Position numbers and translations under genes: made by a program. This document shows positions 1 through 25,702 of a DNA stretch of 25,702 nt, piece after piece. How positions within the stretch are numbered: position 1 is the first letter of the stretch; every line of letters starts with the position of its first letter. Under the pieces are notes generated by a model. The model was not told where the DNA came from. It saw only the letters and a list, made by a program, of their open reading frames with translations, and did not search any database. Origin of the DNA: a virus; the IMG/VR virus record IMGVR_UViG_3300020470_005538, positions 1 to 25,702 of that record; one strand, written 5' to 3'.

Positions 1-1124
1 ATCTTTAATTTTCTAGTAGAAGTACCAAATCTAATTTCTCCATCAGGAACTGTTAAGTTACCAGAGGAGTCCATTGCCAATTTGTGAGTAGTACCAAATT
101 GAATTTCGGTATCCTGATCAAGAATTAAATTATTACTACCATCAAACTCTATAATCTTCTTAGAATTAGAATCTCCAAAACGTAGTTTTGATCCAGTAAG
201 TTCTAAGACACCATTATCATCAAAGAATAATTTGTTACCACTACCAAAGTCTAAATCCTGACCACCAATATCAACTTTACCAGACTCATCTTCACTTAGA
301 ATTCTATTGACTGATCTGATTTTAACTGGATTAGTAACACTAAGTTCTTGAGATTGGTCAGCACCAGTAGCAGCTACTTGAATGTAACCACGTGCTGCAC
401 CATTCTCAGCAGTAAATGATGTAAACGTAGCGTCTGCTTTAGCACCAGTAGAGTCTACAATTTCCAGACTGGTACCAGCCTTCATAACACTGAAACGTAA
501 TCTAAACTTCTCTTCTTGTGTAGAATCTTCTGAAGATAATTTAGAAGCAATGGTACGAGTAGCACCAGTGTCGATACTATTAACTGTATGTGATTCTTCC
601 TTCTTTCGCTTAAATGATCCTCCATCCTCAGATATAGCAGTATCACCAATCCAAAGTGAAGCACTGGTTAGATAAAGATCTCTGAAACGTAATGTAGAAG
701 AACCCAAGTCATAAGCATTATCAGTATTAGGAAGTAAGTTTGTAGAAATAACAACCTCATCACTACCATTGTTGGTAAGATTTGTTATTGCAGATCCACC
801 ACCTCCACCACCTTGTAGATCGTCGCCTGGCTGCCAGCGAGCATTTGCAGTATTCCACTTAAGAACCTGTCCGTTAGTAACCCCGCTAACGTCCACGTCA
901 GTAAGATTTGATGCTGCTAATTGTCCCTCCGTAAACGTACTACCATTCCATTTAAGGACTTGGTTCGTTGAGGGTGAATTAATTGTTATCTGAAGGTTCG
1001 TTTGATCTCCGAGATAGTCATACAACTCATTAATAACGTTATTGAGTTTAATGGCACCGTCTCGTAAGGTATCTCCAGTTCCATCATTGGCACTCACACC
1101 AATGTTAAGTGTCTGCTTAGCCAT
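1..1124 (-). CDS. Fibre-like virion structural protein, N-terminal part (runs off left edge)
   Basis: A stop-free frame starts with ATG at 1124-1122 and leaves the window at base 1, giving 374 residues and no stop. The N-terminus (MAKQTLNIGVSANDGTGDT, then an amphipathic stretch to about residue 40) is of a type I recognise at the start of fibre and baseplate-associated proteins of marine T4-like phages. Two VLKWN motifs follow (residues 56-60 and 87-91), then a hexaglycine linker (105-110), a fibre repeat of the form NAYDLGSSTLRFRDLYL (136-152), a Lys/Glu-rich patch near 172-178, and beta-repeats rich in RFG and LDxD motifs to the edge. This suggests an elongated trimeric fibre; the receptor-binding end would lie outside the window. 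It begins 27 bases after the previous gene. No clear Shine-Dalgarno is seen (AACCCCACTACT precedes ATG). A T4-like late promoter lies just upstream. The assignment as a virion fibre is inferred from motifs; which fibre it is cannot be said. Confidence 0.85.
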   Translation of the reverse strand, partial: MAKQTLNIGVSANDGTGDTLRDGAIKLNNVINELYDYLGDQTNLQITINSPSTNQVLKWNGSTFTEGQLAASNLTDVDVSGVTNGQVLKWNTANARWQPGDDLQGGGGGGSAITNLTNNGSDEVVISTNLLPNTDNAYDLGSSTLRFRDLYLTSASLWIGDTAISEDGGSFKRKKEESHTVNSIDTGATRTIASKLSSEDSTQEEKFRLRFSVMKAGTSLEIVDSTGAKADATFTSFTAENGAARGYIQVAATGADQSQELSVTNPVKIRSVNRILSEDESGKVDIGGQDLDFGSGNKLFFDDNGVLELTGSKLRFGDSNSKKIIEFDGSNNLILDQDTEIQFGTTHKLAMDSSGNLTVPDGEIRFGTSTRKLK

Positions 1125-1156: not shown

Positions 1157-2885
1157 TAAGGTCAAATTCATAATTAGTTAAATCAAAACGCACATCATTT
1201 CTAGTAAAATCTGGATTCGTGTTATCCCTATCAAGTGGGATCGAAGTCATATCAAATTTACCTATATTGCTATCCCACTTCAAAACACCTGAAGTATCTT
1301 CACCACTAGTACCACCAGTGACAGTTAGGATAACAAGGTTGGACGCAAGCGGAGAATTGGATGCTTGCTGAGGTGCACCAATAGGACCAGTAACGATACA
1401 TCTAAATCGATATCCAGTCATATATGCTTGTGCTACAACTGAATATGTGGTCGCATTTGCACCAGTAATATTTGTCCAAGCAAAGCCACCATCAGTAGAA
1501 ACTTGCCACTGATAGTTCTTTGGACCATCTTCAGGTTCAATTACAGCAATCAAACTAAAGGATTGAGTACCACCATTAGCAATCGTCGCATTAGTCGGCT
1601 GATTGGTAATGATTATACTTGGAGCAGCAGGTGGATCTCCACCACCTCCAGGATCTCCACCACCTGTCTCTTCTCCAATACCTTGATTTGCTGGTATATT
1701 TAAAGTCTCTTTAGAAGATAAACCAAAGATATAAGGAAACTTAGGAGTTAAAAACCGATTAGGTACTACTTCAATGGTACTAGAACCACCCATTCCAGCG
1801 TGAGCAGCACAGTAATAGTAAAGAGTTGCTGGTGCATCTCCTAAAGGAGTGATCTCTACATACGCTCCAGCATCACCAGGTGTACCAACAACAGTAACAC
1901 CATCAGTATATTCCGAACCACCACCGTGTAATCCATCTGAAGCAGTAGAAAACCTTAGTGGATGAGTTGCATTAGTCGCTTCTGATTGATCAAACTTATA
2001 TGTACTTCCCTTAATAAATTTTAAATTAGGAGTTTCTACACCATCAATGTAGAACTTACCATCAGATGTAGTAACAGTATATGTTTTACTCTCAGTTTCA
2101 TCACCCCAAAGGGTTAAAAAGTAAGCAAAAGTACCGTTTGGATACTCAGGAGTATAACAATAGCGACCATTATAAACATCTAAATGCCTCCCAGGTTTGT
2201 CAACGTTGTACTCATAGTCCTCCATTAGTGAACCACGTGGAGGATTTGCTGTTGTATTACCATATGCAGGTCTATTTACAGCAATAGTCTCTTTCATTTG
2301 ATACCCTGTCTCCATCAATACTACAGCAGAATTATTATTCTGAGGAGAATCATATCCATAAGGACCATATACAGGATAACCATCAAATGCAATACCTAAA
2401 ATCTTAGAGTGTCCGTCAGGGTGACGCATATTGTCACCAACATACTGACTTAGACCATAGTAATCATTGTAACCAGCCATTACCTGGTTATTCTTCCAAC
2501 AACTTAAGAAGTCACCATCGTGATAGTGATACTGATTATTCTCATTAGGATGACCACCACAACTATCTTCACCAAAATCAACCATACCAAAATCAGCAGT
2601 CGCTACCCAATGAAATCCTACTGGTGGATTTCCACCATCTCCAGCGGAGGGATTAAAGAGTGCGACACCGTTTGCAGATATACCGACTATACCTAGAGGG
2701 AAACTTCCTCCAGCTTGTGTATTATCACCGCCTCTATATGTAAAAGCGTGGCTAAAATTATACGCAGTTGCTGTATTGGGGTTGTTATCATTAGGAAAAG
2801 TACCTTTAGAAACTGGGGTGGGCATCCCATCCCCAGTAACCGTTAGTATATCAGTGCCTGGATTGTACGAACCGTTAGCTGCCAT
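1152..2885 (-). CDS. YHYH-domain virion protein with inserted cupredoxin-like domain and C-terminal Ig-like domain
   Basis: This is a complete 577-residue protein; ATG at 2885-2883, TAA at 1154-1152. Domains in order: a short beta N-terminus beginning with a TYDPxTG-like half-motif (SYNPGTDILTVT); a YHYH domain (about 41-262) with the diagnostic YHYH at 119-122 and FDGYPVYGPYGY at 167-178; a cupredoxin-like insertion (about 267-375) with candidate type-1 copper ligands H308, C359, H362 and M365; the closing KFPYIFG strand of the YHYH fold (382-388); a Gly/Pro-rich linker (about 400-422); an Ig-like domain (about 423-524) with YQW at 458-460; and a tail with VLKWDS (534-539) and two FDLT motifs. 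The start lies 8 bases after the giant gene stops, with AGGA only 2 bases from ATG, so translational coupling is likely. No signal peptide is seen. YHYH domains have no firmly known function; a role in the phage particle is inferred from context. Confidence 0.9.
   Translation of the reverse strand: MAANGSYNPGTDILTVTGDGMPTPVSKGTFPNDNNPNTATAYNFSHAFTYRGGDNTQAGGSFPLGIVGISANGVALFNPSAGDGGNPPVGFHWVATADFGMVDFGEDSCGGHPNENNQYHYHDGDFLSCWKNNQVMAGYNDYYGLSQYVGDNMRHPDGHSKILGIAFDGYPVYGPYGYDSPQNNNSAVVLMETGYQMKETIAVNRPAYGNTTANPPRGSLMEDYEYNVDKPGRHLDVYNGRYCYTPEYPNGTFAYFLTLWGDETESKTYTVTTSDGKFYIDGVETPNLKFIKGSTYKFDQSEATNATHPLRFSTASDGLHGGGSEYTDGVTVVGTPGDAGAYVEITPLGDAPATLYYYCAAHAGMGGSSTIEVVPNRFLTPKFPYIFGLSSKETLNIPANQGIGEETGGGDPGGGGDPPAAPSIIITNQPTNATIANGGTQSFSLIAVIEPEDGPKNYQWQVSTDGGFAWTNITGANATTYSVVAQAYMTGYRFRCIVTGPIGAPQQASNSPLASNLVILTVTGGTSGEDTSGVLKWDSNIGKFDMTSIPLDRDNTNPDFTRNDVRFDLTNYEFDLT
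1314..1619 (-). other. Ig-like domain (C-terminal part of the 577-residue protein)
   Basis: Residues about 423-524 show the pattern ITNQPTNATIANGGTQSFSL, then NYQWQVSTDG with the core Trp, then TYSV and FRC before a closing VILTV strand. This matches bacterial and phage Ig-like folds common on virion surfaces. It resembles the Ig-like end of the giant protein (YQWQKKD, TWTNIQGA), suggesting shared ancestry. Confidence 0.75.
1620..1691 (-). other. Gly/Pro-rich interdomain linker
   Basis: Residues about 399-422 are almost only Gly, Asp, Pro, Glu and Ala (GGGDPGGGGDPP). They join the YHYH/cupredoxin unit to the Ig-like domain and probably act as a flexible spacer. Confidence 0.7.
1761..2087 (-). 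other. Cupredoxin-like domain with complete type-1 copper ligand set
   Basis: Residues about 267-375 read as a small beta-sandwich: LKFIKGSTYKFDQ, then ATHPLRFS carrying His308, a Gly-rich loop, and YYYCAAHAGMGG carrying Cys359, His362 and Met365. The C-x2-H-x2-M loop has the same spacing as amicyanin (C-x2-H-x2-M), with the first His upstream as in plastocyanin-type proteins. Copper binding is inferred from ligands and order only. Similar HP...YYYC..H.GMGG segments are familiar to me from marine phage proteins. Confidence 0.7.
2100..2765 (-). other. YHYH domain, main part (in the 577-residue protein)
   Basis: This covers residues about 41-262. The YHYH tetrad is encoded at 2531-2520. It is followed by a Cys (C129), the conserved segment GIAFDGYPVYGPYGY, and then DVYNGRYCYTPEYPNGTFAYF near the end. 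The last strand (FPYIFG) is separated from the rest by the cupredoxin-like insertion. The giant protein carries matching segments at its window-edge end, so the fold occurs in both neighbours. Confidence 0.85.
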
Positions 2886-2890
2886 AGTCC

Positions 2891-2897
2891 TATTTAG
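2891..2897 (-). promoter_or_regulatory. Possible late-promoter-like motif CTAAATA overlapping the giant gene stop
   Basis: CTAAATA runs from 2897 to 2891 on the minus strand, overlapping the TAA stop (2896-2894) of the giant gene and followed by GGACT and the next ATG. It differs from NATAAATA, and its expected start site would fall at or after the ATG, giving a leaderless message. It could be chance or a weak site; AGGA at 2891-2888 is more likely used as a ribosome-binding site. Confidence 0.25.
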
Positions 2898-5800
2898 TTG
2901 TCATCGAAGATTTGATCAGCAGTGAAGTTGTCTACAGTAGAAGCACCGATGTTAATTGTAAGTATTGCAGACTGTGAAAGTGTTGGAGTAGCACCCGTAG
3001 ATGTGAGACCAACTCTAAACTCATCTCCACCATCACCCTGAGTAGTAGCAGGTACTGTGTACGTAGGAGCTGTAGCACCTTGGATGTTAGTCCAAGTGGT
3101 TGTGCCATAATCCTTCTTCTGCCACTGATAATTAATAACTCCACCAGCAGGTGTTGTGGATGCGATCACAGTGAAGTTAGCGGTCTGACCCTGGTTAACG
3201 GTTGTATTAACAGGTTGTGACTCGATAGTGATGTAAGACTCACCGACTGGATCTGTTTCGCCAGGAGGTACGTACTCAGGGTGGTAAATGTCAATACCGC
3301 CATTGACTCCTTCACCCGTAGGTCCAAGGAATGTGTCTGCGACAGTAGTATTAACTGCGACAGATGGCATTGTATAACCCTGACCAGCGTTCTTAACATC
3401 AATACGTGCGAGACCAACTAGTGCCTTGATCTTGCCACCGAAACCAGAGGAGGAAATCACATCAACGTTTGGACGTGAAGTGAAACCATCACCAGAGTTG
3501 GTGAGGATTGCTTCAGTGATACGACCTCTTTCTATGTTTGCAAGTGCTTGTGCGTTACGTCCACGTACCGATCCAGTGTATTCGAAGGTAATTAGTGAGT
3601 TAGAAGACTCAATTAGAGCAACAGTTCTTGGGAACTCTTCACCTTCAATCTCTAGTAAGTCACCAGCTTCGATTGGTGGTACGACTGTTGCTGCGATAAC
3701 GTCAACGTCAGAACCAACATAAGAGAAGGCAACAAAGGTTGAACCTGCACGAGGTACTTCAGAGAATATAATACGTGAACCAACTAGTTCAAAACCGATA
3801 CCTGGTTCCTGAATAACACCATTTAACTGACAAATTATATTATTTTCAGGTCTAATTGTATTAGACTGAACACCTTCAGTCAGTGTCAAGGAGTAGAAGA
3901 CTCCACCTAACTTCAAGTTAAAGGAGTTACGTAATGAGTCAAAGTCGAATGAGATATCATCTAACTGTCTTAGTTTACCAATGTAAACACCGTGGAATGT
4001 TGAGTTAACAGCAGGTGCTTCAGTGAACTGGATGTTATCTGAGAATGCAGTGAAAGCATTGTTACCGCCAGGAGGTTGTAGAATACCATTCACGAAGATC
4101 ATCATATGACCTGCGGGATCTGGGAAGTATGGAGTACCGTTTAATTGTGTAAGTTTAAAGTCTTTAGTTACACCATCAAACCCTCTGAAGTATCTTCTTA
4201 CGCGACCACGTAGATACTTGGCAACAGAACAAGCACCTCTAAATCCATTGTCACCAATGATTTGTGCGTTCTTAACAAAATCTCCAGAAGTATCACCTAG
4301 GTGGATAATTGCACGTAAACCAACCTGTTCAACTTTCTCAATCTTACCGTAAGCAGTTGTTGGGGTAATTACAACAGCAACGATTGCAGATGTGTATACA
4401 CTTGGGAAGTTAGATCCAGCAGGAATCTTAGCGAGTTGATAAGCAACATCACCAGCGATTACAGTTAAATCATCACCAATACCTACGTATCTACCTGTCT
4501 CATTTGCAAGGTATACGTTCTTGTTTGGAATATCGTGTTCAGTAACAACGAATGTATGACCAACTGACTGACCTGCGTTCTGAAGTTGTAGAACATCACC
4601 AACATTGAACGTATCATCAACACCAAAGTCAGTAATTAGATCTGCATAGTTGAACATTGTAATTTCAGTTGAGTGTACGTACTCACCGAAACCAGGGAGG
4701 ACATTAAATCCTTCAATCTCAATAATTTGATCAGTAACAGAACCGTAAATAACATCACCAGCAGCATATTGTCCGACAACGGATTCGATGTCAAATGTTA
4801 CACGACCTGACTGATTATCAAGTAGAGCACCATCATTATTACGTACAATTAATGCCTCTGCTTTACTTGTAGCATTCTTAGCGTAGATATAATCAGTAGC
4901 AATAAACTCACCCATTCTGAAGTTAACTAACAAGCGTCTATGAGTGCTAGATCCAACAGTTGCCGTGGCACCAGATGTAGTGCCTTCGATAGGATCTGTA
5001 GCAGCAATAGTACCTGCTGTTACAATCAGTTTCATATATGTCTCATTGTCTGTTGCTAAACATATACCCTTATTACCTGTAGCACCTGTCTTAACAACTT
5101 CCTCACCAAGTTCAAATACTTCAGGATCACTAGTAACTGTTATTGGTAGATAAGTTACTGCATAAAGTATATCTGCGTGATTGTCTTGAACCCTAATTAC
5201 TTCACCATATGCTCCAGATGTATCACCGAAGAATATGTCAGCAGGTTGGATACCACCAGAAATAGGAGTAGGAACAATACGCTCACCATATGTTGATGCA
5301 ACACGTACAATACCAGTCTCATCTACAACAGATAAACTATGAAGTTGTCCAACAGTTCCTGGTGACAATGATGTGATCTTATCTCCATCAATTTCTTCTG
5401 CCAACCACAATAAAGTATCAGTAGAATCTGGATGGATATAGTATTCTGTCTTATCTAATTCTGGAATTGCAGTACCTAGAACAACATAAGTAACACGATC
5501 ATAAGCAATAAATGGATGTCCTAGAGGAGCATCTATAGAACCATCAGTATTAACATCAACACCAACATCAACCTGATGCTTAATGAATGTTGTAGGTAGA
5601 ACTGAACGGTTAAGTGCAACGTCAATTAAATGATAAAGTTGTCTAATCTTATGTACAGCACTTGCTGTAGGACGTAATTCAATATTCTTATAAGGTACCT
5701 CTAAGTTATAAGGTCCAGGATTATCACAATCTTGTTCGATTGTATCGATAATCATCTCTAAAGCAGCATCTGCGTGGAAGATTAGATAAGTTCTAAAGAT

Positions 5801-8800
5801 TCCAGGATATGCAACGAAGTTACCTTCAGAGTCAAACCAACTATTAACTAATTCAAGAGTCTTGATATTTCCATCAGTAACTAAGTCATACAAGAATGCC
5901 TTACGGATAGCATCACCAAATTCTTCTTCACCTGTATATCCTGCATATGCTTGTAATGTTTTATAGTAAGATTCACGTTTGATGTAAGTATCATTGAACC
6001 ACAACAACCTTGCTGCTTGACGATACATTCCAGGTGCACGACCTAATGTATCTTCTAAGAGGTCAGACAACGTTGCCATAGCAGACGTTACGTTGTAACA
6101 AATACCACCACCAGAATTTAGAGTGTTATTTGTAAGTGGAGCATTTCTTGAAATACCTTGGTTAGTAAAGTAGTTACCACTTCCAGAAGCAGCGTCTGCA
6201 ATCACACCCATAGGATATGAGAACAATGTCATAATTGTAGATGCTTCAGTTGCACAAGCACCACTACCTGCCTGATCATAAGTGATTGTTATATCACGTT
6301 CAGCAGCACGCTCACCTGTTAATGGCCATTCACCTGGTAGGGTTCTGGTTATATTATTGAGATAAGAAGTTGGGTTACTTGCACCTGAACCGAATAGATT
6401 GATAGGAATACCCATCAAAGTTGTAATAGCAGATGCTTCAGTTGTACAACGTGTAGCACCACCACCTGTGAATGAGGTGACAGCGTTGTTGGCAGAAGTA
6501 ATAAACGTATGATTATAAGCACCACCAGTGTGTACTGCTGCCCTTCTAATACCGTGAGCAGTTGCACTTACAAATGTGTGAGTTGTGGTGTTAGTAGAAG
6601 GTTGAGTTGCTAGAACTTGAACATCAAATGTACTAGCAGTTGCATTTGAAATTGTCAAAATTCTACGACTTGAATAGTCACTAGCTCTTGGATATGAGTG
6701 CTCAGTTGCATTGCTATCTTGAGCACAAGTGAATACTAATGAATTATCATCAATAATAACTCCATCGCCATCAGACCATCCGTGTTCAGGAACTGTTAAT
6801 GTCATTACACCCGTTGTTGGGTTATAGGAAGCATTAGTTACAGTGGTCTTCGCTTGACCTTCCCAAGCGTGTGTGTAAAGTCCACCACCACGTACTGCCA
6901 TTCCCCTAGAACTGACATACTTGTGCTCATAAGCACCACCAGCAACAATCTTAGGCTTACTAATTGAGTTAGAAGCGGCAGAAACAAATGTATGAACTGT
7001 TTGATTACTTGTAGGAATATCTTCCAATACCTGAATACTAAACTGATCTAAAGTTACGTTATAGATCTTCAGTAACTTACCGCTAGCTGGGTCAGTTGCT
7101 CTTGGATAAGCGTGGTTAGAACCATTACCATCCTGTGCACAAGTGAATGTTACTGCACTATCAGCAAGTTTAATGTACTCTCCTTCGTGGAACTGGTGAC
7201 CAACTATGATCGCACCAGAAGTAGCAGTGTTAAATGTATGTGCTGTAGAGTTACTAATAGGACCAGCACCACCATTTACGTTAACAGTAATTGTAGAATT
7301 GGTTGTACCAGTAATTCTAATTTCCTTATCAAGGATATAATCCTTACCATCAGGAGTATTAGCACCAGATGAACGAGGATATGCCTTAACAGCACTATTA
7401 CCATCTTGTGCACAAGTAAAGGAAATACCACCTTCCTTAATCTTAATCTTATCACCAACCTTTAACTTATGGTTAGCACCAATAGTTAACTCCATATCAC
7501 CTGTAGAAGTGTTATAAGTTGCTCCAGTTGGTGTATATGCAAGGTTACCAAGAACCGTCAGACGCATTTCACCAGTCTTAGGATCATATGTAGCACCTGT
7601 TGGTGTCCAAGTATCTGTGGTGTTAACGTAGTTGTGAGTTGTAGTGTTAGAAGATATACCAACATTAAACTGAATAGTTCCATCTGGATGATCAATGCCA
7701 CTTGTAGTTGCTGATACGAATGTATGAACAGTCTTATCAAGGTTGGCCTTACTTACACAAACATCAAACTCATCAGTAGTTACATTTCCTATTGGTAGAT
7801 ACTCATCATAAGATGGATCAGTTACTCTTGGATAAGAGTGAGTTGTGGTATTATCATCTCTAGCACAAGTAAATGTGATAGAATTCTCCTTCATCTTGAT
7901 CCTATCATTTGCTTTCTCAACACCATTAGAAACAGCAGAAACGAATGTATGAGTAAAGTCAACTGAGATAGCACCTTTACCGAAGAAGTAACCTGTATTT
8001 ACGTGGAAATGATTTGTACTTACGTTATGAACTACTAACCACTGGTTAGAAACTGGGTCTGTAGAACGTGGATAAGTATGGTTTGTAGCATTATTATCCT
8101 TGGAACAGGTGAATGTTAATGAGTTATCATCAATCTTAATACGATCACCATTTCTAAATCCGTGACCAGCAATAGTTAATCTTAGATCACTGGTATCTGG
8201 ATCATACTTAGCAGCAGTAACTGTATGTCTAGTAGAGGCATTAAACCCGTGACTTGGTACAGTCAATCTCATTACACCAGTAGTAGGATCATACTGAGCA
8301 TAGGTTGCTGTCTTATGTTGCCAACCAACCTGATCTATGTTGATTCCACGCTGATAGAATGGGTCTCTCTTATGAACAAATCCACCAGTCTTAGACTTAA
8401 TGAAGTTGTGAGTATATAAACCACCACCTCTAATAGTTGCACGTGTGCAGCAATTAGCAGCAGCACTTACAAATGTGTGAGCAGAGATATTAGTAGAAGG
8501 TACAACATCTAAAATCTTAACGTTGAATGTGTCATTAGTTACGCTAGAAATTACACTCCACTTATCCCAGAATGGGTCTGTCTTACGTGGGTATGTGTGA
8601 TTAGTAGCGTGACTGTCTCTATCACAAGTAAATGTGAGAGACTCCTCAGCAAACTTAACCATATCACCTTCTTCAAATCCGTGACCAACAATAGTCACAG
8701 TCATAATTCCTGTAGTAGGAATGTAAGTGATAGCAGTAGGTGTCTTACCTACTTGTGGCTGGAATACGTGAGTAGTTGTGTTAGTGGAAGGAATATCCTT

Positions 8801-11800
8801 CAATACATTCAATGATATTGAAGTTGCATCAGCATCAACAACAGCAACAGCAGTATCGTGATTAGGATCACGCTTAACGTGAATACCACTTGCTGTAGCA
8901 GACTGGAATACGTGAGTAGTAGTATTTGTTGATGGGATATTATCAAGAACTCTAACCCTAAACTGGTTAGAACTCAAAACATTAACTGGAACCCATCTTC
9001 CTGACATTGGGTCAGTAGATCTTGGATAAGAGTGATCTGATGCCTGAGCATCTTGATCACAACGGAATACTAATGAATCATCAACAAACTTAATACGATC
9101 ACCATCTACTAATCCGTGAGATGTAGTTGTCTGAATTGTCATATAACCTGTAGTAGGATTATATGTTGTACCAGCACCAGCAGTTAACTGATCGTAAGTT
9201 TCACGTGGATAGTAATGTGTAGATGCTTGACCATCTTGATCACACTTGAATCCTAATGAACCAGTAGCAAGTCTTATGCTATCACCATAAAGTGTGATTC
9301 CATTTGTAGTTGCAGACTGGAATGTATGTGCAGTTTCGTTAGTAGAAGGAGTAACTTCTAGTACCTTAACGTGAATATTAGTGTTTGTAGCATCAAGAAT
9401 TTCTATCCATTGACCACTAACAGGATCACTTTCTCTTGGATATGCGTGGTCTGATGAATTACCATCTTGAGCACAACGGAATGTTAATGAGTTGTCAGCA
9501 AACATAATTCTGTCACCAGCACCCATTCCGTGCTTACCAATAACCTGAATGGAATCAGCAGTCGCTGAAACAAACTTATGAACAGTTGTATCAGTAACAG
9601 CACCTTGTCCACCGTTAACATTAACAGTTATTGTATTTGTGCTTGTTTCATATATTGGGAGATCTGTTTGATATGCATAGTCAGCACCACTAGTTGTCGA
9701 AGCACCTGAAGCACGAGGATATGCTGTATTTGTTGCATAGTTGTTGTTATTATAATCACAAGCCATTGTGATACCACCAGTAGCAATTCTGATGATGTCT
9801 CCTTTCTCTAAATCGTGAGGACCAATGTCAATTACAAAGTCACCGCCAACTGGATCATAATCAACACCAGTAGGTGTATAGGTCTTACCAGCAATGGTAA
9901 TATCCATAATACCTGTGGAAGGATTATAATCTACTCCAGATGCAGTAAACTTCTTCTGTGGTGTAAACTTATGCTCACCAATGGTTAGCTTCATTACACC
10001 TGTTGAAGGATTGTAATCAACAGCAGAGGGATCAAACCCAGTAGTAGGTGTTGTGCCGACATTAACCTGGAAGGTATTTGCAGCAACATTCTCAATTACA
10101 ATCCACTTCTTACTAACAGGATCTGTAGGACGTGGATATGAATGATATGTGGAATGATGATCCATTGAACAAGTGAATGTCAAAGCACCATCTTCAAACA
10201 TAATGAAGTCACCATTAGAGTAACCGTGGTTATTGAGTGTTAAGGTGATATATCCTGTTGCTGGATCATAAGTTGCTCCAGTTGGAGTAGCAGGATGTGT
10301 ATCTCCTCTAGGATATGAATGATTAGTTGCATTACTGTCTAATCCACAAGTAAAGACTAGTGAGTTAGGAGCGATTCTAATATTTTCGTGTCTGCTTAGG
10401 TAATGGTTACCAACAGTTGCATCTATAGTACCTGTGATTGGATTGAATACAGCAGCACTAATATCAAGGTCTACAGTAGGTGTTTGACCAACGTTAACTG
10501 TGATCCAACCATTCTGCTTCTTAAGTCCACCAGGAGTAAACCCAGTAAAGATATGAGCGAAATTACCAGCAGAAGATACACCAACATTAACCTTAAAGGT
10601 ATTGTTGGTGGTTGCAGTAATAGGCATCCAATGACCTGCTTCTGGATCATCCTTCCTAGGATATGTGTGAGTAGAACCGTGACTATCCTTAGCACAAGTC
10701 ATTGAAATTGAATTCAAGTCAAACTTAACTAAATCAGGTGCAACGTGAACACTGTCAGGAACAGATGCTTGGAATCTATGAATACTTTGATCAGTAATAG
10801 CACCACCCAAAGCAGATGTACCAACATTAACTGTAAATCTGTTTTGTGTAGCGTGCTTAACTATTAACCACTGATCGTGAGCAGGGTCTGTTGTTCTTGG
10901 ATATGGGTGATTAGAACTGTACTGGTCTTTAGAACATCTAAATGTAACTGCACCAGTTTCAAATTTAATACTCTCACCATTAGCAATACCGTGATTAACG
11001 CTGTATACTTCCATATCACCTGTACTTGGATCAAATGAAGCCCAAGTAGGAGATACAGTACGTGGTCCTTTAAATCCGTGACCATTAAGAGTACACTCAA
11101 GTTCACCAGTTATAGGAGTATAATCTGCATCAGTAATAGTATAAGCATCGTGTCCTGCTTCTTTCATCTGTAAAGCAGTGTTTCTAGCAGGGTCAGTTAG
11201 ACGTGGATAAACGTGCTCTGAAGCGTGACTATCCATATCACAGGTGAATGTTAATGCTTCATCTGCAATCTTAATACCTGTACCTTCTAATAAGTGATGA
11301 GCACCAACTTTAAGCTGTAGATCACCAGTTTCACCATCATACTTAGCATCACCAACACTATAGAATACAGCCTCGGTCTTACCAACATTAACTGTGATAG
11401 AACCAGATTCTAATTCAAGACCATCAGGAGTAGCTTCTATGAACTTGTGAACATAATTACCACCTGTTGTTACTGCATTAGGAGCAGCAGAAACAAAAGT
11501 ATGAGAAGTTGCATTAGTAGATGGTAATACAGGTAGAACCTGAACAGTAACAGAGGTTGCTGTAGTACCTGTTACTTCAAGTGAATTACCGTATACTGGG
11601 TCAGTAGACTTACTAATACAGTTGTATACAGCAGACTTAAAGAGGTGAGTATAGTTACCACCTGTTGTTATAGCAGCAGGTTCAGCACTCTTAAAGATAT
11701 GAGCTGTTGTATTAGAAGAAATACCAACATTAATTGTTATTGTGTCATCCTTCTTGACAATTCCATTAGTTGTACCAGATACAAATGTATGGTTAGTAGT

Positions 11801-14800
11801 ATTCGTAGAAGGAGTATTACCATCAAGAATCTGACAGCTGAAAGTAGATCCAGAGGCATTAAACACCTTCAACCACTTGTCGCTGGCTGGATCTGATGCT
11901 CTTGGATATGCGTGGTTAGTAGCACCACCATCTTGAGCACAATTAAATGTTACTGCACCATCTCTAAACTTAACATAATCACCATTTATCATTCCGTGAG
12001 CAGAAGATGTGGTAACTGTCAATACACCTGTTGTTGGGTTGTAAGTAGTACCAGATGCAGCAGTCATTGGAGTACCTTCGTACTTAATTTCGACTGATGA
12101 ATCGTATGCTTGGTCTTTCTTAGAAGTTAATGAACCAGAAACAGCAGAAACATAAGTGTGTGAGTAAACACCACCACCTCTTACAACTGCTCTAGCGATA
12201 CTGTTTGAAACAGCACTTACGAAGTTGTGAGTTGTAGTGTTAGTGGAAGGTACATTATCAAGAACTTGAACATCAAATGTACTACCAGTTACATTAGAAA
12301 CAGGGATAAACTTATGTGAAACAGGGTCAGTTGCACGAGGATATGAGTGATTAGTTGCATAACTGTCCTCATTACATTGGAAAGTAAATGCATTATTATC
12401 AATCATTACGTGCTCACCGTTCATTAAACCGTGATTAGCAACTGTAATTGTCATAACACCTGTTGTTGGGTTATATGCTGCCAACGTTGGAGTCATCTTA
12501 GTTGGAGCAACCCAAGTATGTGGAGTTACGTTAGTTGAAGGAACTGTTTGTAGAACCTGAACTGTGATTGTAGTATCAGTAGTAGCAGTGATTGGGCAAG
12601 CAGTATCATAGAATGGGTCATTCTGTGTAGCACCACCTTGACCTGATGCACGAGGATATGTGTGCTCAGTAGCGTAGTTATCTTGTCCACACTTGAATGT
12701 TAATGAATTATTAGCAATTCTTACGGAATCTCTACCAGCAGTAAAGTTATGCTGACCAATAGTCATAACCATTAAACCTGTTGCAGGATCATAGGTTACA
12801 AGTGAAGGATCATAAGCAACTGTAGGTGTCTTACCTACGTTACAAGTAAATGTTGTAGCACCAGTTACATCAATCTCTAACCACTTACCAGATACAGGGT
12901 CAGTTGCTCTTGGATAAGGATGGTTAGAAGCATTACCGTCCATAGAACAGGTAAAGGTAATAGCACCATCATTAAACTTAACTTTGTCACCATCCTGAAG
13001 ACCGTGACTAGCTTGTGTTGTAATTGTTAAAACACCAGTCTCAGCGTTATAAGCACCATTACTAATGTCTGATACTGTATAAGTTGTAGGACGTGGATAT
13101 GGGTGATCAGTAGCGTGACTATCTTGAGCACAAGTGAATACTAATCCACCCTCAGATATCTTAAGGTGTGTACCAGCAGTAAGACTGTGATCACCAATGG
13201 TTAGAACCATATCACCAGTAGAAGGGGTGTAAACCGCATCTGTTGGTGTGAAACTTACAGTAGGAGATTCTCCAACCTTAAATGTAAATGTATTTGTAGA
13301 AACTGCTTCAATTCTCATCCAAGAATCAGCTGCAGGATCATCTTGTCTAGGATAAGAGTGCTCAGAAGCGTGTCCATCCATAGAACAAGTCATCACCAAA
13401 CCATCTTTGGCAACCTGAACCATTTCACCAACCTTAAATCCGTGGTTAGCAACAGTAACAGTTAAATGACCATTAACAGGATTGTAAGAAGCATCTGTTG
13501 GAGTTACTTGAGTTACAGTAGATCTTGGATAGGTATGGAATGTAGCATCATCATCTTCCTTACAAGTAAATGTCAAGGAATTAGGTGCTATCTTAAGATG
13601 TGTACCAGTAACTAATCCGTGTACACCAAGAATAAGTTCCATACTTCCCGTTGTTGGGTCGTAGTTAGCTTGAGAAGGTGTATAGTATTTCAGAGGACTC
13701 TTACCAATAGACATATCAAATGTATTTCTAGTTACATTAGAAATTGGTAAGTAACGTCCACTAGCAGGATCAGAAAGTCTTGGATATGTCTTCTTGCTGT
13801 AATGCTCATCCATTGAGCAGGTGAAGGTCATAGAATCGTTCAAAATCTTGATCCTGTCACCATTTCGGAATCCGTGATTAGGAACAGTAACTGTTAGAAC
13901 ACCAGTTGTTGCAGTGAAATCAGCGAATGTAGCAGTATGGTACGTAGATCCAATAGCTTCAATATCAATTGCTTTGTCAACTACTGGGTCAGAAGAACGT
14001 GGATACTTATGAATAGTCTTGTAATTATCCTGAGCACAACGGAATAGTAATTCGTTCTCAAGAATCTTAAGTGTTTGACCAACTCTTAGACTATGTGATC
14101 CAACATCTATAGTTAATAAACCTGTCTCTGGATCGTAAGTAGAATACTTGGCATCAAAATTAACTCTTTCAGTGATTCCAACATTAACTGTTATATCAAG
14201 ACCACTTACATTAGTAACTGGTAGTAATGAATAAGCAGCAGGATCACTAGGACGTGGATAAGTATGCTGAGTCTGATGATCATCTTGATCACAAGTAAAG
14301 ACTAATGAATTTGTATTAATTCTAAGAGTGTCAGCAGTTGTTAATCCGTGACCAGTCTGTAACGTAAGTACCAAGTCACCTGTTGCAGGGTTATATGTTG
14401 CAGCTTGTGGGGTATGAGTAGCACTTCCAGAAGATTGATCAATAGTAATTGTTTCATCATATACTGGATCACCTTCGGTATAACCGTTAGTGGTAATCAA
14501 TTGCTGTCTCATTACTTGAATTGCAAGATCACGTGCTTGCTCAAAGACATACTTAACTTCAGTTGCCTGAGAATTGATATGCTGAATAGCGTTAGCATCA
14601 GTAATATAGAACTCAGTTGCATACCATAGTTTGTTGTTACCACCGTGCTTAAGGTTGAATACAGTTGCTTCTAATACATCAACAACGTCATCAACACAAC
14701 TCTGATAACCATATCCACCAAATCCTAACGATGGGTATTGAGTAATAGCACGACCAACAGCAGTAGTAGCGATAAACCTTATATTATTATGAATTTCATT

Positions 14801-17800
14801 TCCAGCATCATAGTATTTGTTACCAACAGAACCAAGACCACGAGCATTATCGTAATAAGGATCACGCTGCTCATTAGTCATCGTGTCAGGATAGGGATTA
14901 AACCCAAGCTTGTTCTGGATGGCGAGGACCGTCATATCTCTAGCCATCTGCATAGCAAACTTAGTTTCAGCAGGTTGATCAGTAACGTGCTTCAATCCAT
15001 TCTCACTATTCAGATATAATAATGATGCATCATATACAGCAGAGTTAGAACTAAATCTAAGGTCGTGGCATATTGCTTCTAATACATCAACAATGTCATC
15101 TTCACAATGTACCTTTCCACCTTTAACACTGAAGTTATAATGCTTGAATGCAGAGCACTTAACCATAAGGTCAACTGCTTCCTCAGCAATAACTCTCTTA
15201 TTTCTGTCTATCATATCAGCAGCATCTAATGCACGCTGAGAACCTGCATAGATCTGAGTGTCAAATAAGAAGGTAGGTTCAGTTGTTACATCCTTACGAT
15301 ATGCAGCAATATCCGTATACTCGAACTGGAAGAAATCATCAATAGTGTTAGCATTTGTTCCAGTAAGATTAGCAAGGTTTTCGTTACGTGATACAAGAGC
15401 ATTTTGTAATGCTTTCTCCATCAAGAACTTAGAGTAACCAATAGCATCAAGCATTGGAAGGATCTGTTGATCCACTTCAATAATCTTACCAGTAGAATCT
15501 ATGTAATTATCAATAATTGACTGTACATTAGCATTACCACCAGTTAATAAGTCACCAGCAATAGCAGGAATAATATGATCTCTAATATCTCTCTTACATT
15601 TCTCAGTACCAGGTGAACCACCAGGAATAGTTAACTTATCTACTTGTACAAAGTTGATCATAACTTCGTACTGTGCCTCTAACCACTGTACAACCTCATC
15701 AGCAATACATTTACGGTTAAAGTATAGTAAATCAGCACCATCTCTAAATCTGTTGCCTGTAGGTCCAAGAACTAATAGTATACTATCTACAAGATCGCTA
15801 ATGAAACCAGTAATAGTTGAACCAGCAGGTGATGAGAAGTAATTAGGAATACGAACACGTTGTGTATATTCTCCACTTAAATCATCTTGATTAAGAGTAA
15901 TAATCTCGTTGCAAAGCTTACCAACTTCTCTCCAAGCATAAATGGACTGAAGTAATTCATCATTAACGTGTGCTAATTGACCTTGCTGGTTAGCAAGATA
16001 TCCTCTTGCAGCAACAATACTGTTATAATTACCACCATATCTAAGGTCAGCAACAATAGCAGGAATGATATACTCGTAAGTATCCCTCAAGCATAATTGA
16101 GTACCTTGATCTGAAGTACCAGTATCACCAGGTATCACAAAGTCAGGATACTGTGCCTTCATTCTTCCAACTGCTTCTTCAGCAATGAAGAATTTATTCT
16201 TATCGATTATATCTGCACACTCTCTAAAGTCATCACGAGCAATATCAACACACTCGGTCATAATTTCACTACGCCATAACTCTACACCATCAGCAGTACA
16301 GGTAGAAGTTATAGTATCACTATAAGTTGCATAAATTTCACCTTTAATAATAGGAATAGGTGCTTCACCATCAAATCCAAATTTAAGGTTTATATCAGTA
16401 GCATCATATGTTGAACTAGGTGTAAAGCTTGTACTGTACTCAGAAACACCTAACTTAATCATCAAGTTCTCTATATTTCCAGTAAATGCTTGTGCATTAG
16501 AAGCATTAGCACCAATCTTAACTGGCATATTGCCATAGTTGGTTGCATCATTATAATCAACACCTTCCTTAGTACCACCAACAAATAATCTAGTTAAACC
16601 AGAGTTACGTGTTATAGCGATATGAGTCCAAACATTTGCCTGTAAACTAGCAGAAGAAGTGATCCTATCTGTGTTAGCAGTATTCCAACGAACTGTATTA
16701 TTAACAAGAATCAGATATCCTTCAGTTGTAGATGCAGTAGCAGTCCTGAAATCAAGCAACATCTGTGTAGTATTAACAGCAGTTGGTTTAATCCATAGTT
16801 CAATAGTAAAGTCACCAGCAGCACCAGCACCATCACCGAAAGCAACTTTTGAAGTTGATGGGTGTGTTAAATATGCAGTACCATCAAATTCAAGGGATCC
16901 AGTACCAACAGCATAATCTAAGTTGTCTACAGTTACATTAGTATTAACTAGAAGACTATTAGTGATATATTCTCCAGCACTAAAGGTTCCTGTTGGGTTC
17001 TTAGTATAGATCCACTTATTACCAGCATTAGATCCGATAATTTCAGCAGAAGCACCAGAAGTTATACCTTTAACTGTATCACCAAAAACGAAGAATCCAC
17101 CAGAAGACTTATCCTTATATGCCATCTTGATAGACTTAAGTGTCTCAGAATCTTGGAAAGAATAAGGTGGCTCAACTCTTGTTATATTACTTGTTGCCCA
17201 AGGATATGTACCAGGAGTAGCACCAGTAGGATCCTGTAAAGTATCTGTGATTATTGCAAAGAAGTTAGTAATCGCAGAAGTTATATTGACACAGGAGTTA
17301 GTAGCAGGAATAGTATTCAGTGCTGTGCTAGGTATTGTACTTGTATATGCTGCTTCAAATGCTGCTAAAGTTCCAGGAGAAGCAGTAGTACCTAGGGCAT
17401 TAATCACAATATCCATCAGGGTGGTTATTGTTGAAGCAACTGTCTGACAAGCAGGTGATGCACTGTCAGCAGTAATGCCACTATCAGTAACTTGTGTCCA
17501 ACCGTGTGAATTATCTTGCTTGGCGACTGCAATATTTCTCATAATATCGATTGCCATAGTCTTCACTTTGGTATAAGCGTCAACCATAGTATCAATATCA
17601 CCAGTTACAGTACCATATTGTATAGTTCTATGGGTTGCTTCATAAATGTGATCGTTACCACCGTGAGCAGCGTTATATGATAATGCTTCGACAAAATCAA
17701 CAATGTCAGATAAGCAATGAACATCTCCACCAGATACTGTATATCCTGGATTCTGTTGCTTGGCATAATATAATGCTTCGTGAGCAATGTACCACTTGTT

Positions 17801-20800
17801 AGCAAGTAGTAAAGTTCTAGCATCAGCGTGACTGTTATCAGTAGGCTGATAGTCAGCAGTAATTGTTAAATCACGCCATTGTTGGAGAGTTGTATGAGTA
17901 GTATCAATACTTTCCATTCTGATGCACTTAAGAGCAAGATCTCTTGCCTTATTCATTGCATATACTACTTGTGGAACTTCACCATCAACGTGATATACAG
18001 TAGATCCTTGAACGTAAGTATTGGCAATATCATAGACTTCAGAGTTACCATCGTGCTCTAACTGCCAAGCCATCATATAAAGTGCATCAACGATATCATC
18101 GTGACAATCTTTATCGTGATTTAGACCAGGAACTACGAAAGAGGGGTAGAAATCGTGCATTAATCCCACGGCTTCTTCAGCTATGAACAATGCATTCTTT
18201 TGCAGTGTTTCAGCAGCATCACCACGTCTATTATCGTGCTGTCTTCTTAACGAAGAGTTACCGAAGTATAGTTTCTTAAGTCTAAGTTCATCACCAGCAA
18301 CAAAGTCAGTACCAGTTAGATTCTTATAACGAATCTCTTGATTACGTACATTCTCAAAGTCTAGGAAGTCTTGGTTGTTTGCAGTAGTAGTATAAAGTTC
18401 AGTTGGGTTAATAACTGTCTCACCAATGTTATCGAGGATAACGTTAGGGAAGGTAATTGAAGGAACTCTCTGGAATACTAGTGCAAAGAAGGAAGAACTA
18501 GGTGATAGGTCTACCTGATCAATAATCTGATTAGATATATCATCCTGATAAGGTGCAATACTAGTAATTAAAGAACATATCTTAGAACGTGCAGAATATA
18601 TGATATCGTTAAACTTAAGATTAAATTCTCCAGTTTCAAACTCAGCAGTACCAGATGTACGTGAAACAACTAACTCATTAGTGATAACACCATCTTCTAA
18701 GTTATTTTCTTCAATTATAGCGAATCTACCTTGTAAATTAGTAATTCTTTCACCTTGCTCGTAGATAGTCTTAGAAGTAAGTCCATTTACAGCAGAAAGT
18801 ATAGAAGCAAATCCAGTAGCACTAGAATTGACTTCTTCATTGATTTGGAAGGTTCCTACTATGTTAATGACATCAATATAGTCAACACCAGAATCAATAA
18901 CAGTTGCAGTTGCTTCAGAGATCAAACCACGAACAGTATTACCCAAAAGTGGGAAAATACCACCAATGGTACTGAATGTCATCCTAGTAATTAACTGTTG
19001 TTGATATACAATCTCACGGAACTTAATCCTAGAAGGTGCTTTAGGTGCTTCAGTAAAGACTACAGAAGGTCCAGAAGTAGAGAAGGCAGTACCTGGTGCC
19101 TGTGCAACACCATTCAGCAAGATAAACATCTGATTATCTGTTGCTGTTATGGATTCACCTTCAACATTTAGAGGGAACTGGGTTTTAATCCCATCAAAGT
19201 CATCAGAGACGTTATCAATCTTCTTAACAATAGAAGTCAGAATTTCCTCTGAGTTAGTCAGTCTCTTCTGTCTAAACAGTACCTCAGTGTTATTGAACTG
19301 AGTATAAATGGGTTGTGCGTTAGCAAAAGAGGTAATTTGATTAATATTAGTGAATGCATTAATATTAACCTCTTTAATAAGGTCAGATATAACTTTTCTT
19401 CCTGAAATATCCTTACCACCAGTAATTGCTAGTTCACCAAACAGGTTGAAACCAACAGGGTGATTTGTTTCTAATACAGGCTTTCTCCAAGTATTAATGG
19501 GTGTTTCAGACTTAATAACGTAAGAGAAGTTCTGATAGAAGTAAGAGTCTTGTATTTTCTGTACAATTTCAGATGGTTTACCAACGTCATCGATAAACTG
19601 ACCAGGAGTATTGGTTAGAGAAGCGATATTCAGAGTACCACGAGCGATTGATAGGTTATCAATCAAACCAGAAGCACGAGAAACTTCACCAGTTACACGC
19701 TCTCCAGCTCTCCAAACACCATCATAGTTCTCAAGTTTAAGGATTCTAGGTCCAATCTGCCAACCTTCGTTAGTAGAAACATAACCAGTAGCAGATGCTA
19801 GTGCTAATGAAGTACCTTGATAAACAAGTTCACCAGCAAGGAATCTTGAAGTTTCAACGATAGCAGTTGCTTTACCACCAAATACCTCGGTGAGTAGTAC
19901 CTGTCTACCTTCACCTTGAGTCAAGAATGTGATATAAGAACCAGATTCAGCATCTAACTTAGTTAAAGAGATACGTAACTGGTCAGATTCAAGTGAATTC
20001 TCATTACCAGCAATAGCATAGTAGACCTGATTCTCAACCAAGCTAGTTAAACCAGCAGAACTTGGTTTTGGTAGAATACCAACGGTAGATCCTAGATCTT
20101 CTGCTCTTAATGTAACTTCAGCACCAGTTGTGATACCGTGTGGGAAGTTAAACTGTAAATAACCTAAGTCAACGTTAACAACGTAGTTAAATTCCGATTT
20201 AAGGGTAACTGTTGGTTCAGAACTGTATCCTGCACCTGGATCCTTAATAATAATCTCAGAAAGACGATTGTTCTTAACTATTGCCTCTGCTGATGCACCA
20301 GATCCACCTCCACCAGTAATTACAACAGCGGGAGTTGAAGTATATCCAGAACCTGGGTCAGTTATCTTGATCTCTGCGAGTAAAGCGGTATTAAACAGCT
20401 GAAGGTTCACAGGGAAAGTTATTTCAGGTCTCAGTGTATAATCGTGTGAGTAACCGAAACCAAACTCATTATTCTTAAGTTTCTTGATCTTACCAATAGA
20501 TTTACCTTGTAAGAACACAGAAGCACCTGATCCTTCATCAGGAATAACAACTTCAAGAACTCCACCAGAACCAGCAAGTAAAGAACCAAGAATACCTGGA
20601 ATTGCATCAATATCGATAGATGCAGTCTTATATCCTTTACCAGCAGAAGTTAGAGTAACATCAGTGATAACTCCAGTGAAATCTCCATCATCAGTAACTG
20701 TAATGTTACAAAGAGCACCTTCACCATCTCCATCAATAGGAACATTATAGTAAACACCATTTACGTACTCAGTACCACCATTAAGGATACGAACCTTCTC

Positions 20801-23800
20801 AATTTCTCTGTTAGAAGCAATATCAGTAACAATTGGTAGTTTCTGATAGAATCCACCTGGGTTTACCAGCTTGATATCAGATATTGGACCGATTGCCTTG
20901 ACAGAGGTTGTTGAGTAAGAAGAACGAGGCTGATCAAATTCGTTGTTACCAACAGGAGCAGTAGTTTTTTCTGGTTCATCTAACATCTGGAAATCAAATG
21001 TCTTACCAGCGTTACTAACACCAGATACTCTAAATGTACCATCATAAGGTGATTTAATAACGTCGATGAATGATCCTTCACCTACAGGAGAGTCTGCACC
21101 TGTCCTTGAAGGGTCAAAGTAGTATGAAATATTAGTAACATCCTCATTAATGACGAATTTAACCAACGGAGTTGGTGAATCATCATCAGTGAAACCTGGT
21201 GTACCCTCTCTAATGATGTTAATAAACGGATATTCCAGTTTATACTGGTTATCCCTAGAGAATGATAGGTAATATCCAAGGTTAGAAGGATCATCAAGGT
21301 CAAATATGTACTGATGACCTCTAACAAAGAGGAATTTAGGATGTTTTGCGTAAATATTGACATTCGTTACTGAAGATCCACTACCAGAGAAGGAAGGATC
21401 CTGTACAGCAGTAGATCTCATACGGAAGAGGAAGTCTCTTGAGTTAAAGATCTCTTCTACGAAGAATGAACCGTTATAATCATTGGTAGCAAAGTGTTCT
21501 GTAAATATTATCTCATTTACTACGAAATTGTGTCTACTAGAAGCAGAACAATATACCAAATCAGTATTTGTAAGTGCACCAGCAGGGATTACATCCTTAT
21601 TTAATTTTGCAACTAAGGATATCTTCTGTACACCAAGCAATCCAGTGAATGTGGCGATCTTACCAGTAGCATCAACAGAGAACTGTAAGTTAACTGCATC
21701 AGCATCAATGGTATCTCCTTTGATGAATGCGGAATCTTGATAGATTTCTTCAATCTTGATGGTGTAATCAGATGCTGAGAAAGGCTTCCAAGAAGCAAAA
21801 GTTCCTAATGTACTACCACCATAAGAGGTATCTGCAAGATCTACCTCATATATGCCAGATGCAGAGGTATATGCCCAAGTTACACCACCATCAGATACAA
21901 CACCAACCTCGTGAGTAGGTGCAATAGTACCAGATGTACCAGCAGCCGTTGCTGTATAGAGCTTCTTATCATTATAAACTACATCACCAATGGCATAAAC
22001 GAAGTTTGTAGCCCACTGAGCTTCAGCTTTGGTCTCTGTAAAGTTCCATTCTAGCTCGTTTACATCATTATGAGTAGATTTTAGTAGTTTTTGATTGTCA
22101 AAAGTACCAACAATCTTACCAATCTTGACAGAATTAGTTCCAACCTCAACAACTACACCATATGCAGAGATAACATCATTGCCACCAATGACTGAATACT
22201 GTTGTAAAGTAGTTCCTTTACTGAAAGTAGCAGCCTGGTTGAACGTAAGTGTCTTAACTAGGTCAATTTGAGAGTATTTTGCATCCCTGAAGTAGAATTT
22301 AGGGATAACAGTAGTTGTTAATAGTAGTTTCTTACCACCTGGAGTCGGGATAGTAGCAGTTCTATTAGCAAATATTTCATCAGTAGACGTAATAGTAAAG
22401 GTTCCAGGTACGTGAGTTGAAACAACATCACCATAATCAAGGATCTGAATACCAGCAGGACCTATAGACCAAGGATTTATCACTACCGCTTGGGTATTAA
22501 ACGTATAATTGCTCGCAGCGGCGACGTTTAGGGTATGTCCTGTCTCAACACTGTTAAGAGTAAATGATCCAAGTTGTGTCTTGTCCCTATCAACTTTATA
22601 AACAAACCCTTGCTTAACTGAATTTGTACCAGTTATAGCAACTTCAGAAGGAGTAAATGCTTCTACGTACTTAGCAACAGGTGAAACAACGAAATTATCA
22701 ATCCAACCGATCCAGTTGTTAATAGAACTAGGTGCACCTTGAGGTCCAAGAGTTGCATCCTTCAAATTAACATCAACAGTTGTACTGGTAAGAACTTGTG
22801 TCTCAATACCATTAACATATAAACGATACTTATAATCACCAACTCCAACACGTTCTTTAGCAAATGCAACGTGAATGAATGCTTCATTATTGAAAATAGC
22901 AAAATAAGCAGAAGCACTAGAGAATGTAGTTGATCCTGCTATGTCAATATATGTCTTACCGTAATTTGGTGATGACTGGTCAGCATCTAAACCACACTTA
23001 ACAATATTACCAACGTTGTCTTCTATTGAATACCATTCTGGTTTTGTATTAGCACCACTATACTGAGCAGTAGAAAGTGCCCAGAATCCTTCAAGACACC
23101 AACTAGTTGCTACGTCAGCACCATATTGTAGTGTAAGTTTGTTAGATGCGTCTAATTTAACCGCAGATGCTCCAGCAAACTTCTTAGTGTCATCAATTAC
23201 AGCATTACCAGTTGCGTGCCAAGCTTTGTTGGTAGCAGTCCTTAAAGTGTCATTATAAGTATCATCTAACAAGTTATCAGCAGTATCCCAGTTAAAGATT
23301 GCTAATTGATCAGATTCTAGTTTGTTACCAACAACAATAGTATCACCAGAATTGTCATTATCAACAGCAATAGGTCTAAATCCAATACCATTAGTTTCTG
23401 ATACGTTAGTAGCAGAAATAACGTTACCTGTATTCCAACCAATCTTAACAGTTACTGATTCTGCATTATTGAAATCTCTCTCAACAGCAGCAGATAAATC
23501 AACATTACCAAAAATGTCAAATTTAACACCACCATTCTTTACTCCGTGATATTCACCAGTAGGAACAAATATTTTGCTCTGAACAGGAATACTAAAGTCG
23601 TTGTTATCAAATTTAACGTATATAACACCATAATCCTTACCATTAGTGTCTTCTGCTGTAGCAGTTACATATACAGCACCATATTCATCGATAGAGAACG
23701 TGGGATCCTTAAACTTATAAGAAGCATTAGTAATCTTCTTAGCCCACTGAAGTTCAATAGTAGCAGTATCGTAATAAGTTTCACCAATAATGATGTCACA

Positions 23801-25702: not shown

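Follow-up and report, generated by a model that had tools for sequence, protein, structure and literature searches.

Phycobiliprotein-like domains in a giant virion protein encoded at the gp7 position of a marine T4-like cyanophage

The stretch of DNA analysed here (the window, 25,702 nucleotides) carries a 5'-truncated gene that almost certainly encodes the gp7-position virion protein of a T4-like marine cyanophage (Kyanoviridae). Within this giant protein lie six domains that we regard, with high confidence, as homologues of phycobiliproteins, and we tentatively propose that at least some of the copies bind bilin. Retention of the bilin-site cysteine and aspartate in each domain hints at a light-absorbing virus protein. 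Even without pigment, the phage would be reusing a host antenna protein as a structural tail module. We call the domains phycobiliprotein-like because they are embedded in a chain of ~9 kaa; phycobiliproteins are free-standing subunits of 160–180 aa, and none of the phage domains stands alone in this way. Coordinates are collected in Table 1.

Table 1. Features of the window, with strand and supporting evidence
Feature	Position	Strand	Remarks
Giant virion structural gene	2894..25702	-	7,602 codons in window; ~9,022 aa estimated; phrog_701 over whole length
YHYH domain PF14240, start incomplete	25349..25672	-	Residues 11-118 of open frame, E 1.4e-27
Phycobiliprotein-like copy 1, C-H-D-D	17891..18223	-	Profile hit 7e-14
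Phycobiliprotein-like copy 2, C-L-S-D	17384..17899	-	Profile hit 1e-6; PF00502 1.4e-4
Laminin_G_3 / ConA-like lectin domain	16457..16855	-	E 1.1e-18; between copy pairs 1-2 and 3-4
Phycobiliprotein-like copy 3, C-L-R-D	15743..16312	-	AlphaFold2 model; PF00502 5.0e-5
Phycobiliprotein-like copy 4, C-K-R-D	15449..15745	-	Profile hit 9e-14; modelled with copy 3
Phycobiliprotein-like copy 5, C-E-D-D	14945..15295	-	Profile hit 2e-9
Phycobiliprotein-like copy 6, C-V-D-D	14483..14818	-	Profile hit 6e-13
Bilin-site-type Cys codon, copy 3	16091..16093	-	Sole invariant column of 58 copies
Equivalent Cys codons, copies 1, 2, 4, 5, 6	18104-18106, 17714-17716, 15596-15598, 15104-15106, 14696-14698	-	
~25 diverged ~105-aa repeats, C-x2-D-x5-H-x-Y-P-R-x2-D	6473..14470	-	Some close relatives have no block or a short one
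C-terminal Ig/PKD-like domain	2954..3238	-	phrog_613 2.7e-11; PKD_4 0.0044
Downstream virion structural gene, 577 aa	1152..2885	-	YHYH domain and plastocyanin-like segment 1746-2102
gp9/gp10-like baseplate wedge-tail fibre connector gene, truncated at left edge	3..1124	-	PF07880 5.9e-10; phrog_677 4e-28

The giant gene and its neighbourhood

Read on the minus strand from the right edge (25702), the frame meets no stop until the codon at 2894, a distance of 7,602 codons plus the stop. The other reading frames of the window hold 442–1,091 stops each, so the giant open frame did not arise by chance. The only further long ORFs in the window are the two downstream genes (1152–2885 and 3–1124), and searches of the window for RNA genes and tRNAs found none. 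The right end of the record, at exactly 25,702 bases, truncates the 5' end of the gene, which continues past the window as the earlier note had supposed. In 13 close IMG/VR relatives with an intact flank, 85–89% identical to the window across the last 400 codons, the ATG adjoins a stop and lies 1,420–1,421 codons further upstream than the position homologous to the window edge. This indicates where the start that the earlier note had wanted found probably lies and gives an estimated full length of ~9,022 aa. An exact 31-mer search from the right edge found no overlapping contig of the same virus among the viral contigs, so the start is taken from relatives at 85–89% identity. The edge itself codes for a YHYH domain (PF14240, E 1.4e-27), again as had been read there.

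The frame is real and under selection over its full extent. Codon-position base composition is uniform over the whole giant gene, and each 600-aa segment, compared with the nearest complete relative, shows most change at third positions. An intact giant gene is present in 24 independent IMG/VR contigs (6,356–9,922 aa). The S-SZBM1 ortholog, S-SZBM1_208 (6,619 aa), was detected by LC-MS in CsCl-purified virions with 71 peptides and 13.5% coverage, in a gel-free analysis whose detection of the protein is no proof of a single unprocessed chain (PMC9146016). These observations uphold the earlier description of one uninterrupted phage structural gene kept open by selection for the full-length product. 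Misassembly, which had been named among the possible refutations of that description, is not borne out. A false long frame made by collapse, expansion or chimera formation would fit a metagenome contig with a long repeat array inside the gene, but the longest exact DNA repeat within the window is 27 bp, a comparable gene is intact in the 24 contigs and in several isolates, and the window can be aligned to its closest relatives right across the repeat block, at 60–84%. We reject this explanation, to which we attach negligible probability.

The profile phrog_701 matches the giant protein from end to end: its positions 1414–6129 are found across pieces of the window, and positions 1–1412 in the N-terminus of a relative, a region absent from the window. 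In the window, as in the isolates P-RSM6, S-WAM1, P-TIM40 and S-SZBM1, the giant gene is followed by the YHYH virion gene and then by the gp10-like gene. Upstream of the giant gene the isolates carry gp6 and gp25, a part of the genome that in this virus falls beyond the window edge; the gene order in the isolates is gp25, gp6, giant gene, virion protein, gp10-like. Phrog_701 is filed under 'head and packaging', whereas the place of the gene and the annotation of isolates indicate the baseplate. Sequence homology to T4 gp7 was sought and gave no clear match, and the name 'gp7' rests on position. In one relative the N-terminal 1,420 aa had no match in the PDB; 29 residues of a relative's N-terminus match phrog_964, a wedge family of 1,030 aa (E 0.0017).

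The giant protein consists of a conserved core of ~6.5 kaa and a variable array of ~105-aa repeats, and the array sets the length. Length follows 6,523 + 105 × the number of repeats, with r = 0.986 over 13 homologs and r = 1.000 over six close relatives. The repeat block occupies residues ~3745–6410, counting from the window's right end, and among the searched records it occurs in cyanophages and marine viruses only. One relative (G005), with ~80% identity at the right end of the window, is without the entire block; ~2,650 aa are absent between flanks that align at ~60–95%, which may represent either a natural deletion or a state before expansion. Within these YPR repeats the Cys, Asp, Tyr-Pro-Arg and further Asp are invariant and the His nearly so. 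The repeat may be a metal or ligand site, present ~25 times, and a sequence search of the PDB returned no clear relative for it.

Giant size is not unprecedented in Kyanoviridae, and the gene is of a known kind. Versions in isolates run from 6.6 to 8.6 kaa (CPXG_00128 of P-RSM6, 8,573 aa; gp7 of P-SSM4, 7,312 aa), and IMG/VR versions reach 9.9 kaa. Within this virus family, then, a length above 7,600 residues is not the new extreme that the earlier note took it to be. Its suggestion of an unusually long appendage tells only part of the story: the protein may form an extended appendage or a compact baseplate mass, the extra length proves to be a countable array of ~105-aa repeats, and the six phycobiliprotein-fold domains had been missed.

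Two further elements merit mention. The ConA-like lectin domain of the giant protein (16457–16855) is a possible sugar-binding element. Segment 1746–2102 of the 577-aa downstream gene is plastocyanin/cupredoxin-like, with a His, a Cys and a His conserved and a Met mostly so, which is the copper-ligand pattern. The top PDB hits of this segment are plastocyanins but weak (E 0.013 with a single sequence, 0.09 with a profile), and PF00127 matches at 8.9e-4 in one relative.

Relationship of the six domains to phycobiliproteins

Six helical copies, arranged as three adjacent pairs, are present in the window and in close relatives. The Pfam Phycobilisome profile (PF00502) scores 34.4 bits on a window piece with several copies, against a cut-off of 22.2; single window copies score 16–18 bits, under the gathering cut-off, and only summed copies pass. 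A profile of 58 copies run against the PDB returned phycobiliproteins in every one of its 60 best rows (best E 6.8e-7), and in this alignment the phage C-x-x-D falls on the bilin site C-x-R-D. With a profile of copy 3 orthologs, 31 PDB sequences were matched at E <= 10 and all but one (30/31) are phycobiliproteins. Profile–profile comparison with phycocyanins by hhalign gave E 2.2e-7. The sequence alignment spans ~60–75 residues, the remainder of the domain resting on the predicted fold.

AlphaFold2 models were obtained for copy 3 (pLDDT 77, pTM 0.73; input rows taken solely from the window and IMG/VR) and for copies 3 and 4 together (pLDDT 80, pTM 0.77). Foldseek matched these to phycobiliproteins at probability 1.00, in each of the top 50 rows for copy 3 and in 49 of the top 50 for the pair. 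Comparison of the predicted models with phycobiliproteins by VIA gave Z 17.0–17.7 and rmsd 2.2–2.6 Å over 143–147 residues. In the model of the pair the listed structural matches are confined to the first domain, and the assignment of copy 4 therefore rests on sequence similarity to copy 3, which is also the basis for copies 1, 2, 5 and 6.

The relationship also holds in reverse. When seven whole cyanobacterial genomes were searched with the phage profile, all hits were ORFs of 163–212 aa, and every hit that was scanned (10/10) carries PF00502 with E below 1e-40. PF00502 matches 17 of 18 cyanophage records, as against one of 14 control genomes (Synechococcus elongatus). A phycocyanin query was used purely as bait for host genes, and every comparison was made with the genes so fetched. 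Convergence, in which an unrelated helical domain would resemble phycobiliproteins by chance, draws on the greater frequency of chance high scores for helical folds and on Foldseek E-values for the copy 3 model of only 0.01–0.1. We consider it very unlikely, given a profile search whose listed hits are all of one family with the functional cysteine aligned, a reciprocal genome search that yields phycobiliprotein genes only, Z values above the 13–14 given as noise for helical models, and the restriction of the domain to phages of organisms that own the phycobiliprotein family.

A search of 50,697 phage records with the stretch spanning copies 3 to 6 gave 359 matches; one is a marine single-cell virus and the rest are cyanophages. 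In structural comparison with viral proteins, the best matches are cyanophage tail or structural proteins, together with uncultured Caudovirales and a number of unnamed entries. Beyond the close relatives, S-PM2 has five copies in S-PM2d218, P-HM2 two in gp7 and S-SKS1 one in SWZG_00012. The S-SKS1 domain (Llyrvirus, a Synechococcus phage) is the single copy of a 928-aa protein encoded at 11596–14382 of the S-SKS1 locus. S-PM2d218 mutated during chemostat coexistence of the phage with its host (PMC9910659). No close phage-like copy was found in 244 cyanobacterial genomes at E <= 1e-7, in a search run without a known positive, and none of the plasmids searched had a match. A partial literature search with few terms found no mention of phycobiliprotein-like content or PF00502 in cyanophages.

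The bilin site and possible roles of the domains

Across the 244 distinct copies in the analysed loci, conservation peaks at the motif cysteine (98%, or 226 of the 231 ungapped copies). Next comes the aspartate at +3 (96%), which is found in 231 of the 244 copies. Equivalents of Cys84 and Asp87 are present in all six window copies. In phycobiliproteins this cysteine carries the bilin and the aspartate holds the bilin pyrrole nitrogens; both are invariant in the aligned phycocyanins. The motif reads CxRD in 113 of the 244 copies, CxDD in 81 and CxSD in 20. The equivalent of Arg86 is invariant in copy 3 orthologs, and its retention in only about half of all copies (113/244) counts against bilin binding. 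So does P-SSM4, whose gp7 has three detected copies, all without the motif cysteine, in a genome that encodes a bilin reductase and CpeT. Since these three copies have no cysteine, the site is dispensable in P-SSM4.

The main rival to bilin binding is that the captured phycobiliprotein fold is now a purely structural module free of pigment, its cysteine and aspartate serving for helix capping, packing or contact. The P-SSM4 domains, retained without the cysteine, fit such a role, as do the variability of the site arginine and the setting of the domains in a very large structural protein with an ortholog found in virions. Phycobiliproteins, moreover, assemble naturally into rings and rods, and the six copies make three pairs. 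A pure scaffold, however, would need neither the cysteine nor the aspartate, and these two are the top conserved residues across 244 copies that are often ~20–30% identical. We regard the structural reading as possible though somewhat doubtful. Another ligand in the pocket (heme, non-covalent biliverdin or a metal), or use of the cysteine as a redox or disulfide switch, is improbable: the invariant columns include no proximal histidine and the match is specific to phycobiliproteins. What speaks for it is that globin-like folds bind several tetrapyrroles, that the adjacent YPR repeats have invariant Cys and Asp with a near-invariant His, and that the next gene has a plastocyanin-like Cys/His/Met set. 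It is more improbable still that the domains mimic phycobiliproteins so as to engage host phycobilisomes or assembly factors after infection. Their occurrence in cyanophages only and their close relation to host antenna proteins would suit mimicry, but the ortholog is a virion protein and baseplate proteins normally remain extracellular. The domains are also present in the Prochlorococcus phages P-RSM6, P-TIM40 and P-HM2, whose hosts are without phycobilisomes.

If at least some copies bind bilin, the pigment could come from either partner. Among 14 records examined, nine have a bilin reductase (PF05996) and 11 a CpeT (PF06206). S-WAM1 and S-SZBM1 have the domains without a bilin reductase, and would therefore need host bilin. 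No clean correlation of the motif cysteine with bilin genes was found in the few genomes compared, P-SSM4, S-WAM1 and S-SZBM1 being exceptions. A further point against bilin binding is that T-type lyases, CpeT among them, act on the Cys155-type site and not on Cys84. Two cyanophage contigs (G003 and G006) each have two adjacent apparent CpeT genes.

We propose that a host phycobiliprotein was the ancestor of the domains, which would have been captured and incorporated into the baseplate/tail protein. In that case bilin, supplied by the host or produced by a bilin reductase that the phage encodes, would be bound by at least some of the copies, and the mature virion would thereby carry a covalent tetrapyrrole. 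The simplest use would lie in the adsorption apparatus, as a component that responds to light or is tuned by it. That bilin is bound by the domains in virions we hold to be the likeliest reading, if a tentative one. A part for the domains in light-dependent adsorption is unlikely and speculative, and we think it similarly unlikely that baseplate bilin domains are a virion photoreceptor or light-tuned switch behind such adsorption and one substrate of phage bilin reductases and lyases. We know of no identified sensor for the light-dependent adsorption of cyanomyoviruses. Light is reported to be required for the adsorption of several marine members of the group (PMC2984593, PMC5082946). Prochlorococcus cyanophages carry working bilin-synthesis genes although their hosts are without standard phycobilisomes, and the benefit has been described as unclear (PMC2984593). 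One candidate answer, both to light-dependent adsorption and to the benefit of phage bilin genes, is a virion protein whose six phycobiliprotein-fold domains have the attachment residue.

Comparison with known systems

The closest known counterpart is the giant gp7-position protein of Kyanoviridae (phrog_701), as in P-RSM6, P-SSM4 and S-SZBM1_208, the last annotated 'baseplate wedge initiator'. The closest isolates share the downstream gene order, the profile match runs end to end with ~42% identity in the end pieces, and the order of the phycobiliprotein-like copies is shared by close relatives and by most of the isolates examined. The window member is longer, at ~9,022 aa, by virtue of its ~25 YPR repeats, and IMG/VR relatives extend to 9,922 aa. 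T4 gp7 is several times shorter than the cyanophage giant protein and is without a clear sequence match to it; the likeness lies in the position after gp6 and in the virion or baseplate annotation of relatives.

Among the other cyanophage proteins with the domain, S-PM2d218 and P-HM2 gp7 share C-x-R-D in most full copies, whereas the surrounding proteins of these two and of SWZG_00012 are unlike that of the window, and S-SKS1, which encodes SWZG_00012, lies outside the T4-like group. The phycobiliproteins themselves (PF00502: phycocyanin, phycoerythrin, allophycocyanin) differ in being subunits of 160–180 aa, in contrast to six copies within one giant chain, and in an identity of ~15–20%. They share with the phage domains the predicted fold, the order of helices, profile similarity in both directions and the C-x-x-D bilin site, which takes the form C-x-R-D in phage copies 3 and 4.
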